This document shows, piece after piece, positions 33,146 to 64,000 of a DNA stretch of 64,000 bases. The notes under the pieces were generated by a model. The model saw only the letters and a list, made by a program, of their open reading frames with translations, did not search any database and had not been told where the DNA came from. This DNA is from Bartonella grahamii ATCC 700132 (GTDB lineage: Bacteria; Pseudomonadota; Alphaproteobacteria; Rhizobiales; Rhizobiaceae), in assembly GCF_000518085.1 (NCBI RefSeq), contig NZ_JACX01000004.1, positions 62,001 through 126,000 on the forward strand. Direction: 5' to 3'. The position numbers and the translations under genes are program-made. Each line of letters opens with the position of its first letter. The first letter of the stretch is position 1.

Positions 33146-33359
33146 CTTCGAAGTTCTTTATGCGTACATTTTGATAATACAAAAGCATAGATCAATACTG
33201 TAGTCTCATATAAAAGGATTTTTTCTTAATCAAATTATTTATGGGACAATTTGTTAAAAAATAACAAAACCCCTTTATTTGCTGCATACAAATGCCGCTC
33301 TGAAGATTAAAAGTACCTCGCTAAAAGACAGCATAAAAAATAATTTCTTCAGAAAAATA

Positions 33360-33455
33360 GGAGGTTGGCACGATGACCCGTACCAGAACTCGTTGGGGCT
33401 GCTTCTTTCCAGACCTGACCCAGTTGGCGAGCTGTTCGTCCACCACCAACCTCCC
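33360..33455 (-). ncRNA. ffs: Signal recognition particle RNA (4.5S-type, small)
   Basis: Read on the minus strand, about 96 bases begin GGGAGGTTGG and end CCAACCTCC, pairing with each other to close the hairpin. The apical domain contains GGGTCAGGTCTGGAAAGAAG and then CAGCCC, the highly conserved Ffh-binding core with its GGAA-type tetraloop and asymmetric internal loop. The position just upstream of dnaX-ybaB-recR is the usual alphaproteobacterial location. Exact ends are approximate by a few bases. Confidence 0.94.
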
Positions 33456-55985: not shown

Positions 55986-56008
55986 TGAGTGTATCATTTT
56001 TGCTACAG
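55986..56008 (+). promoter_or_regulatory. H-box-like motif upstream of the first hbp gene
   Basis: TGAGTGTATCATTTTTGCTACAG is shared, with few changes, by all five hbp upstream regions in this window and ends about 67 bases before this start codon. It matches the position of the Irr-bound H-box described for Bartonella hbp genes. Confidence 0.6.
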
Positions 56009-56075
56009 ATATCTGAAGTTTGGGCTCTATATGAAATGATGTGTTCAAATAAATATTCAGCTATGGAGAGAAAAT

Positions 56076-57153: not shown

Positions 57154-57176
57154 TGACTGTATCATTTTTACTACAG
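57154..57176 (+). promoter_or_regulatory. H-box-like motif upstream of the second hbp gene
   Basis: TGACTGTATCATTTTTACTACAG, the clearest copy of the shared motif, ends 57 bases before the start codon at 57234. Confidence 0.6.
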
Positions 57177-57233
57177 CTTTTCTTTCTGTAATCTTGTAGC
57201 ACTGTGCTCATAAATAAATTAGGAGCAAAGTTT

Positions 57234-58412: not shown

Positions 58413-59248
58413 ATGAATACAAAATCTTTAGTCAAACCGTCTATTATCGCTATGGCTGGAGCGTTTACGACATAAGCTGCAGACATTATTATTCTTCGTG
58501 AAACAATCCCAGCAGTTATCACAGCCCTTTCGTTTTCTTGGATAGATTTTTATCTTGGTGGTCAAGTTAGCAACTTTTTAAGTCAAAGTTGATGTATTTG
58601 ATTTAGAGACAAAAGAAAAAACTTCATAAAGGTGGACTACCTAAGCCTTCAGGTTTCATCGGTTGTATTTATTTAGGTTCCAACATAGATCTTGGAAATG
58701 TCCTCATTCTAGGTGTTGAAACCGATGCAGTCTGGGCGGACCGAGGAGAGACGAAGACGGTTTCAAAGATTCTTGCGATTAATAAATTTAATGATGTTAA
58801 TGATGAATTTGAAGATGCTGGTGTTACATTGGATGAAGATGAAAAGTTTCAAAAGGGTGATACAGTAGTGTAGCACATTGGTTTTAAAGAAAAAAGGTCT
58901 GGTGAAACACGGGTTCGTGTAGGCTTTTTCGTCGCTGACCGCATTATGCCTTATGTTACTGGTGGTATTGCTTATGCGCAAATACAAAGTGTTGGTAAAG
59001 TTTCAGAAACAAAAAAGTCGGCAAATGGTAAACCGAGTAAAGCAGTTTCTGCTACGGTATTTCATAAAACAAAAGCGATGGTGGGTTTCACCCTTGGTGG
59101 TGGTATAGATTTTTCGATGACAAATCATATTCTGCTTCGTGCGGAATACTGCTACTCAGACTTTGGTAAGAAGGAATTTAAAAAGGATTACCTTAAACTA
59201 GGCTACAAAACCAACGACTTTCATATAGGTGTCGCTTACAAGGTTTAA
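58413..59248 (+). pseudogene. Decayed hbp/pap31 gene
   Basis: The old ATG (MNTKSLVKPSIIAMAGAFTT) is followed by a TAA within the signal peptide (about codon 21), a frameshift after the GGQVSNFLSQS region and a further stop (TAG at 58871-58873). The Hbp blocks remain recognisable: LGNVLILGVETDAVWADRGE, then from 58946 an open frame of 100 codons PYVTGGIAYAQIQSVGK ... LLRAEYCYSDFGKKEF, ending GVAYKV instead of GVAYKF. Sequence on both sides matches the neighbouring hbp genes, so it is an inactivated tandem copy. Confidence 0.9.
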
Positions 59249-59353: not shown

Positions 59354-59376
59354 TGACTGTGACATTTTTACTACAG
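59354..59376 (+). promoter_or_regulatory. H-box-like motif upstream of the hbp gene at 59432
   Basis: TGACTGTGACATTTTTACTACAG differs from the second copy by two bases and ends 55 bases before the start codon. Confidence 0.6.
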
Positions 59377-59431
59377 CTTTTCTATCTATAATCTTGTAAG
59401 GTCATTTTATAGTTAATTTAGGAGCAAAATT

Positions 59432-61418: not shown

Positions 61419-61579
61419 CGCTTGGTTTAAAAAAGGCAACATTTGATTTCACTGTTTGCACAGGCATTGATTTTGCAATAACAGATGATAGTTTATTACA
61501 TGCAGAATACGGTTATTCAGATTTCGGTAAAAAGAAATTTATAAAGAATATTATCATTAACAGTTATGCAAAAATTTAA
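61419..61579 (+). pseudogene. 3' fragment of an hbp/pap31 gene
   Basis: The stretch reads LGLKKATFDFTVCTGIDFAI, then TDDSLLHAEYGYSDFGKKKF, matching the last barrel strands of the intact Hbp proteins (VGFTVGGGVDFAMTDNVLLR, AEYRYSDFGKKKF). About 160 bases remain. The 5' part is gone and integrase-repeat sequence lies just upstream. Confidence 0.8.
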
Positions 61580-61680
61580 TGAAAATGAATCCAACTTTAA
61601 GACACATAATTCTAGTGTGATTTAGTTTACAAATTTTCATTGAATGCAAAATTAAAAGTTTAAGAAGCTTTATTTTTTTG

Positions 61681-61703
61681 TGAGTGTGTTATTTTTGCTA
61701 CAG
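61681..61703 (+). promoter_or_regulatory. H-box-like motif upstream of the last hbp gene
   Basis: TGAGTGTGTTATTTTTGCTACAG is closest to the copy of the first hbp gene and ends 56 bases before the start codon at 61760. Confidence 0.6.
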
Positions 61704-61759
61704 ACCTTTCAAAAAAGATGCTCTATATACATTTCATTTTGGATATTTGGAGAGATTTT

Positions 61760-63508
61760 ATGAATACAAAACGTTTAATAACAGCATCTATTTTTTCTTT
61801 AATTTCAACGTCTACAGCGCTAGCTGCTGATGTTATGATTCCTCATCAACCAGCACCATCGACATCTTCTGCCATTGTTGCGCCTACTTTTTCATGGACA
61901 GGTCTTTATTTAGGTGTCCAAGCTGGTGGTTTTTCGAGCAAATCTGATATGGCTCTTGTTGATCAAGAAAAGAATTTGCCACTAGATAAAGAGTTCTCTC
62001 CTAAACTTTCAGGTTTTGTAGGTGGTTTTTATGCAGGTTCTAATATTGATCTCGGTGATAACTTTATTTTTGGTGTCGATACGGATTTAATGATATCTGG
62101 TAAAAAACACACAAAGACAATTACCATAGGTGCAGCTGATAACACTACAGTAGAAAATGCAGTCGTAAGATCCCGCAGATCCACAAAACCACAAACGTCT
62201 CCAACCCCTCCAGCCCCACAAGTAGCAACAGGAACACCGGCACCAGCACCAAAAGCCGCTTCAGGAGGATCTGCAGGTGCAGGAACACCTGCAGCAAGCC
62301 CTGCGTCAGGAACAGAATCCTCCAAACAAGTGACAAAATCATCAGAAGTAAGAGGAACGCCAACGTCAGCAGAGGGCAAAACACAAGCTGTTACATCTAA
62401 ACAAACCTCCTCACAGACAGAGGGAAGATCAGTGCAAGAATCGTCGGGATCATTGGCAAGATCAGATACAAGACAGCCATTGGTAGTAGTAGGGGGAAAT
62501 GGATCAAATCCAGTTACACCTAAACCAACAGCTATTGGCGCAGGGGCAGGAGCAGCAGGGCAGCCATCATCGTCCTCATTGGGAAGATCAGATACAGGAG
62601 GGGCATCGTTAGGTGGGGTAGGTAGATCACAACCATCTGTGCAGTCAGCATCGCGATCAGCTACTGTATCAGTAGAGTCCGCACAAGTACAACCTACACT
62701 GGTAAAATCTAGCGTAACCGCACCAGCAGTACAGCCAGCAGCAAAAGCGCCTACATCGGTACAATCAGCATCACAACCATCAACAGCAGAAAAAACAGTA
62801 CCGAGCGCACCACTTGTACTCGCGAGATCAGGATCATCCTCTGAACCAGCAAAAGCTTCCAATGGAACAAGCGGAGCCCAAAACGGAGCTCATCATGGTG
62901 CCCATGGTAGCGGAAGTGATGCTAATCCGCATGGTGCATCTCATGGAGGTGGGCATGGCTCTGGCGCTCATGCGCATGGTGCTAATCCACATGCTTCTCG
63001 TTCTCATGGTGGACAGAATATGGCTGGACACGGTGCACAAAGTACACAAGCGGTGGATAAGAACAATTCCAGTGTATATGGTATAGAACAAATGAAAAGG
63101 GTGGCTTCTGAACTTGGTCTTGATCAAGAGGATGAAGTTGAAACTTTAAATCATACTTTCAAACAAAATTGGGGTGGTGCTACACGGGTACGTATTGGTT
63201 TTGCTGCTGATCGTTTTATGCCTTATCTTGCTGGTGGTATTGCTTATGGGCAGTTCCAAGACACTATATCAATATCCGTTAAGGATGAGGATGGAAGAGT
63301 CGTTTCTTCTAAGAACTTAGCTGATGAAACAAAAACCATGATTGGTTACACACTTGGTGGTGGCGTTGATTTCTCGGTGCTGGATAATGTGATTGTACGT
63401 GCAGAATACCGTTACTCTGATTTTGGCAAAAAGAAATTTGCAAAGGAAAAATTTGAAGTTAACTACAAAACCAATGATTTCCGTGTTGGTGTAGCTTATA
63501 AATTCTAA
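61760..63508 (+). CDS. Hbp/Pap31 family protein with a large Ala/Ser/Pro/Gly- and His-rich insertion
   Basis: The start chosen is the ATG at 61760 (MNTKRLITASIFSLISTSTA) with GGAGAG upstream, giving 582 residues, about twice the usual family length. Residues 1-133 match other Hbps: signal peptide, SWTGLYLGVQAGGFSSK, IDLGDNFIFGVDTD. Residues about 134-434 are an insertion rich in Ala, Ser, Thr, Pro and Gly, ending in a stretch (378-424) with 11 His among Gly, Ala, Ser and Asn. Residues 435-582 resume the barrel: NWGGATRVRIGFAAD, RAEYRYSDFGKKKF, GVAYKF. The insert replaces the charged loop that varies among paralogues, so it is probably extracellular. Its base composition is richer in G and C than its surroundings. 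Confidence 0.92.
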   Translation: MNTKRLITASIFSLISTSTALAADVMIPHQPAPSTSSAIVAPTFSWTGLYLGVQAGGFSSKSDMALVDQEKNLPLDKEFSPKLSGFVGGFYAGSNIDLGDNFIFGVDTDLMISGKKHTKTITIGAADNTTVENAVVRSRRSTKPQTSPTPPAPQVATGTPAPAPKAASGGSAGAGTPAASPASGTESSKQVTKSSEVRGTPTSAEGKTQAVTSKQTSSQTEGRSVQESSGSLARSDTRQPLVVVGGNGSNPVTPKPTAIGAGAGAAGQPSSSSLGRSDTGGASLGGVGRSQPSVQSASRSATVSVESAQVQPTLVKSSVTAPAVQPAAKAPTSVQSASQPSTAEKTVPSAPLVLARSGSSSEPAKASNGTSGAQNGAHHGAHGSGSDANPHGASHGGGHGSGAHAHGANPHASRSHGGQNMAGHGAQSTQAVDKNNSSVYGIEQMKRVASELGLDQEDEVETLNHTFKQNWGGATRVRIGFAADRFMPYLAGGIAYGQFQDTISISVKDEDGRVVSSKNLADETKTMIGYTLGGGVDFSVLDNVIVRAEYRYSDFGKKKFAKEKFEVNYKTNDFRVGVAYKF

Positions 63509-63756: not shown

Positions 63757-64000
63757 ATGACTGTGAAAAATGAAACAATAGATTATTCAAAAACTCTTTA
63801 TCTCCCACAGACAAATTTTCCTATGCGTGCAGGGCTTCCGCAAAAAGAGCTTGAATTGATGGCGCGTTGGGAAAATATGGGGCTTTATGCGCAATTGCGC
63901 CAACAAGCAAAAGATCGTCCATTTTATATTCTTCATGATGGTCCACCTTATGCAAATGGTCATATTCATATTGGGCATGCTTTAAACAAAGTTCTAAAGG
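63757..64000 (+). CDS. ileS: Isoleucyl-tRNA synthetase (N-terminal part, runs off the window)
   Basis: About 81 codons of a class I aminoacyl-tRNA synthetase are present. The N-terminus [20 protein letters not shown], then [11 protein letters not shown] and the segment [20 protein letters not shown] with the HIGH nucleotide-binding motif are characteristic of bacterial IleRS. The start is the ATG at 63757 with AGGGATATTTCACA before it, a weak ribosome-binding site. The KMSKS part lies outside the window. It charges tRNA-Ile in the cytosol. Confidence 0.95.

Follow-up and report, generated by a model that had tools for sequence, protein, structure and literature searches.

The closest described relatives of the gene discussed here are the HbpB proteins of Bartonella quintana and B. 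henselae, members of the HbpA-E family of haem-binding proteins. The larger size of HbpB and its extra central part have been in print at least since 2012 (PMC3483173). All four B. henselae Hbps, as His6-tagged proteins, bind haem on blots (PMC3483173); those that lack the insert bind it too, and binding therefore does not require the insert. For HbpB the published results disagree, as B. quintana HbpB is reported not to bind haem (cited in PMC3483173). Escherichia coli expressing B. henselae HbpB forms red colonies on Congo red, and the greatest rise in HemR-mediated haem use in E. coli was obtained with HbpB (Table 3 of PMC3483173), an advantage that, according to the authors, could reflect more protein. 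Knocking down any one of the four Hbps cut the period of detection in flea faeces from 10 days to 6 (PMC3483173), and the hbpB and hbpC transcripts of B. quintana increase at high haem and at low temperature (PMC3483173, PMC3799009, PMC10936683). B. henselae HbpB was undetected by western blot and is also absent from the outer-membrane proteomics cited there (PMC3483173). The passages of published text that were consulted gave no function for the extra central part. PMC3483173 contains no word beginning with "histidine", and a literature search for histidine-rich hemin proteins of Bartonella returned no match; an earlier publication of the histidine-rich segment described below is possible.

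The window analysed here is the whole 64-kb stretch of Bartonella grahamii DNA, and the last gene of its hbp array is hbpB.

61760..63508, + strand: hbpB orthologue, 582 amino acids, last gene of the hbp array and 5' of ileS (from translation, Pfam, position and the start MNTKRLIT)
61760..61828, + strand: signal peptide, residues 1-23 (by inspection; helix 3-24 in the orthologue model)
63757..64000, + strand: first part of ileS, the neighbouring gene directly 3' of hbpB by which the position is recognised

The gene lies next to ileS, begins with the same MNTKRLIT that is encoded by the B. henselae hbpB primer (PMC3483173), and specifies a barrel like that of B. henselae HbpB; it is therefore hbpB, and its insert as such was already known. 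The same features hold for the HbpB orthologue group, which has the Hbp-type outer-membrane barrel, a central part absent from other Hbps (as HbpB is described in the text seen of PMC3483173), and the place before ileS and the start shared with B. henselae hbpB. The exact 25-base primer is present in 7 of 71 Bartonella genomes. One genome (G063) was taken as B. henselae because the cloning fragments computed for its hbpC (881 bp), hbpA (890 bp) and hbpB (1235 bp) have the printed sizes (PMC3483173); its antisense fragments of 831, 840 and 1176 bp, computed without primer tails, are each 6 bp below the printed size. The HbpB of this genome (L114) has 391 residues, with 10 histidines in the insert core, and also has a histidine-rich segment. 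The second loop is much longer in the window protein (357 residues) than in B. henselae HbpB (166 residues).

Profile searches agree with the first-pass annotation, which had placed Hbp barrel sequence at both ends of the protein. Pfam Porin_2 (52.6 bits, curated cut-off 22) and OMP_b-brl (51.4 bits, cut-off 28.7) both match the 582-residue product, and the barrel families cover its two ends. No Pfam family lies above cut-off over the insert, where a Cdc27 match at residues 101-234 is sub-threshold, and all 4 NCBIfam matches of the protein are far under cut-off. Searches for solved structures related by sequence (E 0.01), for Rfam families in hbpB or its leader (gathering scores), and for a second copy of the variable arm elsewhere in the same genome (E 0.001) each returned nothing.

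Upstream of the gene, the 91-bp leader (61669-61759) is strongly conserved among 41 orthologues, with 74 of its 91 columns at least 90% conserved and a mean of 0.91, and the 240 bp further upstream have mean conservation of 0.50-0.76. The leader contains a short box:

61691..61704, + strand: leader box ATTTTTGCTACAGA, inside the conserved hbpB leader 61669-61759

The general form of this box, ATTTTTNCTACAG[AC], occurs at 55996-56009, 57164-57177, 59364-59377 and 61691-61704, once ahead of every one of the four intact hbp genes, its end lying 54-66 nt from the gene start. With up to one mismatch allowed there are 4 matches against 0.25 expected, and none of 100 shuffles had 4. The exact form ATTTTTNCTACAGA is found at 97 of 124 retrieved loci, a set with overlaps and repeats. 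The shared hbp box may be the published Irr-bound H-box (PMC3799009). The array also holds a degenerate hbp copy with stops (58413-59242) and a C-terminal hbp remnant just 5' of hbpB (61433-61552). Elsewhere in the window, the bacterial small signal recognition particle RNA matches at 33357-33454 on the minus strand (Rfam).

Within the protein, the conserved blocks stop near residue 142 and restart near residue 434, leaving a variable core of 297 residues, close to the low-complexity insert of about 300 residues that had first been described. The insert has two modules, a variable arm and a histidine-rich segment, held between conserved edges:

61889..62131, + strand: barrel strands 1-3, residues 44-124 (mean column conservation 0.83; modelled strands)
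62132..62185, + strand: conserved N-terminal edge of the insert, residues 125-142, a short helix followed by RSRRS (alignment; helix 128-139 of low confidence)
62186..62869, + strand: hypervariable arm rich in proline, alanine, serine and threonine, residues 143-370 (composition, divergence and alignment)
62870..63058, + strand: histidine-rich segment, residues 371-433 (11 histidines in residues 378-424)
63059..63139, + strand: conserved C-terminal edge of the insert, residues 434-460, with the VYGIEQ helix (alignment and model)
63140..63505, + strand: barrel strands 4-8, residues 461-582 (Pfam, orthologue model and alignment)

In the N-terminal edge, R137 is invariant and R140 and S141 are at least 90% conserved among 26 HbpB sequences. 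The sequence details reported at first reading are all present: LARSDT at residue 232 and LGRSDT at 274, SVQSAS at 293 and 333, and 11 histidines in 47 residues. Among the 42 stop-free stretches of at least 200 codons in the window, no other reaches this histidine density, the next best having 6 in 47 residues. A long antisense open reading frame (62029-62862) covers part of the insert. We rejected it as a gene: antisense frames span at least 90% of the loop in none of the 41 orthologues, reaching about 80% in some and 267 of 357 codons in the window gene, and the frame looks like a by-product of composition.

The full-length model of the 582-residue protein was poor (mean pLDDT 43.7) and was used for secondary structure only. 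It has short helices at both edges of the insert, and residues 140 to 441 lack regular structure. A low pLDDT is by itself no proof that the insert is disordered. The model of B. phoceensis HbpB (356 residues; 79 Hbp sequences) is better, with a mean pLDDT of 74.2 and 144 residues at 90 or above. It has eight strands, mostly of high confidence, and the insert connects strands 3 and 4. The turns after strands 2, 4 and 6 have 2-4 residues and lie on the opposite side from the insert; the last outer loop, between strands 7 and 8, is also short. Periplasmic turns of barrels usually have 2-4 residues. Because the turns opposite the insert are of this periplasmic type, the insert is placed on the outer side, in the second outer loop, and HbpB is predicted to be an eight-strand outer-membrane barrel. 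The suggestion that the insert leaves the barrel on its outer face is consistent with this orthologue model and with the Congo red colonies described for B. henselae HbpB (PMC3483173). Foldseek gave 117 matches at E ≤0.001, and among the 50 listed are OmpA, NspA and Ail and also larger barrels, OmpT and FadL being examples. The eight-strand barrels OmpA, NspA and Ail have the barrel fold in common with the HbpB model, with 8-12% identity among the matches listed. Barrels of this type are not known to have a comparable long histidine-rich loop.

The first-pass annotation had pictured a stalk with a histidine cluster at its tip, and the orthologues do not bear this out. Among 41 orthologues, loop length ranges between 125 and 431 residues and core length between 66 and 372, which supplies the comparison of insert length across genomes that had been proposed. 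Of the 402 histidines in these cores, two of which are shorter than 75 residues, 387 are within the last 75 residues. The distance from the last histidine to the conserved YGIEQ edge is 8-24 residues (16 in 20 of 41) regardless of arm length, and the histidine fraction is 12.6% in the last-75 stretch versus 0.24% in the arm. Core length and histidine number have no clear relation (Spearman 0.18, p 0.27). In the window protein, the cluster at residues 378-424 is 36-82 residues before strand 4 (modelled at 460), and the loop has its midpoint near residue 290. Because the histidines stay at the strand 4 end whatever the length of the core, the histidine-rich segment is not the tip of a stalk; it is held at the C-terminal end of the loop, near the barrel. 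Conservation of the histidines in relatives, which had been named as a check, is seen in 40 of 41 orthologues, with at least 5 histidines in some 47-residue stretch. The exception (G057) has only 2 histidines in its insert core.

The composition of this segment brings to mind the His/Pro region of histidine-rich glycoprotein, which is likewise rich in histidine and contains His-Gly and Pro-His. His-Gly occurs 190 times in the orthologues against 44.8 in shuffles, and the last-75 stretches of 36 of the 41 orthologues contain 60 copies of NPH, against 1.5 expected from shuffles of sequences that are related and not independent. The likeness implies no common ancestry; the HbpB segment belongs to a bacterial outer-membrane loop, and the tandem (G)HHPH(G) repeats of histidine-rich glycoprotein are absent from the window protein. 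The ligands of histidine-rich glycoprotein include haem, metals and heparin (PMC7762548). By this analogy, and with His-Gly and Asn-Pro-His both enriched, the segment could be a site for zinc, copper or nickel and not for haem, serving metal uptake or metal-bridged adhesion to host proteins. We consider this unlikely, given that the gene belongs to a haem-binding family and that hbpB transcription in B. quintana follows haem and temperature (PMC3483173). Nevertheless, histidine-rich segments bind many ligands, and the present data do not separate haem from zinc, copper or nickel; haem as the ligand is inferred.

The arm behaves very differently from the barrel. An alignment of 26 HbpB sequences has mean column conservation values of 0.83 and 0.89 for the barrel portions before and after the insert, 0.72 and 0.71 for the insert edges, 0.55 for the histidine-rich segment and 0.29 for the arm. 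For the 40 closest pairs, chosen for the most similar C-termini among all pairs of the 41 and not independent, median amino-acid identity is 0.92 in the barrel, 0.67 in the histidine-rich segment and 0.35 in the arm, and median dN/dS is 0.16, 0.59 and 0.85, respectively; the arm values are rough because low-complexity alignment is unreliable. In one pair (G045 and G049), the barrel is 0.99 identical and the arm 0.40. The proposal of a variable region thus holds between species. Proline, alanine, serine and threonine make up about 59% of the arm, internal repeats are found in 15 of 39 arms, and a motif of a hydrophobic residue followed by [AGSV]-R-S (as in LARSDT, LGRSDT and VLARSGS) is seen in 33 of 41 cores, with 60 copies in all against 3.1 expected from shuffles that ignore relatedness. 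Of the third codon positions counted, A fills 66.5% in the arm and 24.4% in the barrel, whose commonest third base is T (53.9%); the last-75 stretch falls in between. We rejected recent shuffling of arm pieces among species as the main cause: with one genome per species, 39 arms shared only 3 blocks (at least 45 nt and 90% identity), and each of these was at most 0.2 points more identical than the last 345 nt of the gene. Comparison of these sequences points to growth by repeats and rapid change, and not to recent exchange among the sampled species.

One explanation of such an arm gives the insert a mainly immune role as shield or decoy, in which the arm hides the barrel or draws antibody and the histidine-rich part is a by-product or extension. 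The divergence of the arm beside a constant barrel, its repeats and its composition all fit, as does a B. henselae fragment with many SNPs that carries hemin-binding genes, the gene not being named (PMC3483213). However, a shield leaves the NPH motif unexplained, as well as the confinement of the histidines to one end of the loop and their retention, and we regard it as possible but doubtful as the main role. Neutral low-complexity growth, in which an unconstrained loop was enlarged by repeats and has no function of its own, would account for the repeats, the high arm dN/dS and the arm-specific codon habit. It would also fit three other Hbps (L070, L071 and L072) with long second loops, of 152-191 residues, and only 0-4 histidines. 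Against it are the conservation of the insert edges and histidine-rich segment and the presence of the insert in all 42 genomes of the long-HbpB group, and we find it quite improbable.

The distribution of the insert was followed in 71 Bartonella genomes, in 70 of which the nearest hbp gene before ileS was located. This gene is an intact long HbpB in 41 genomes, a long HbpB interrupted by a run of N in one (G024), and a short Hbp or fragment in 28 (partial frames only in G003 and G059). In the remaining genome (G065), the ileS pattern was unmatched and the locus has short Hbps only. In a midpoint-rooted ileS tree of the 70 genomes, built on a short alignment of 78-80 codons, the 42 long-HbpB genomes form one group with no short one inside, and one gain of the long insert with no loss is the simplest reading. 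The script left 114 Hbp-like open reading frames without the HbpB label. L064, one of these, is an HbpB that the pattern overlooked; in the remaining 113 the second loop has 23-191 residues and never more than 4 histidines per 47. The ileS-adjacent Hbp is short in the genomes of L070-L072, and growth of the second loop seems to have occurred more than once. An Hbp paralogue on another contig of the B. grahamii genome (L004, contig C5) has a second loop in which G[SA]GTE is repeated in a run and histidines are few.

We postulate that the second outer loop of HbpB has grown into a long, disordered surface insert of two modules. The arm, which varies freely, would probably be a flexible shield or decoy. 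The histidine-rich segment and the conserved edge that follows it would probably form a multivalent, low-specificity sponge for haem (or for zinc or copper) close to the membrane. Such a sponge could concentrate haem locally for the haem receptor and could bind toxic haem in the arthropod gut. We give this reading, a membrane-close haem or metal sponge combined with a variable shielding arm, about an even chance of being correct. More specifically, and more tentatively, we speculate that one loop carries two devices, an antibody-shielding hypervariable arm and a membrane-close histidine-rich haem trap, that together make a tethered and shielded haem collector; in this full form we doubt the idea more than we credit it.

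The extra central part of HbpB was known beforehand. What is added here is its anatomy across the genus and the correction of the stalk-and-tip picture. The anatomy, with a variable arm, a histidine-rich segment near the barrel and conserved edges, shows which stretch to remove or test, and a His-tagged HbpB construct could mislead. If the arm is as variable among isolates as it is among species, it would be ill suited as a typing or serology target. If HbpB is indeed a shielded collector, it would feed the haem receptor in blood and protect against haem in the arthropod gut.
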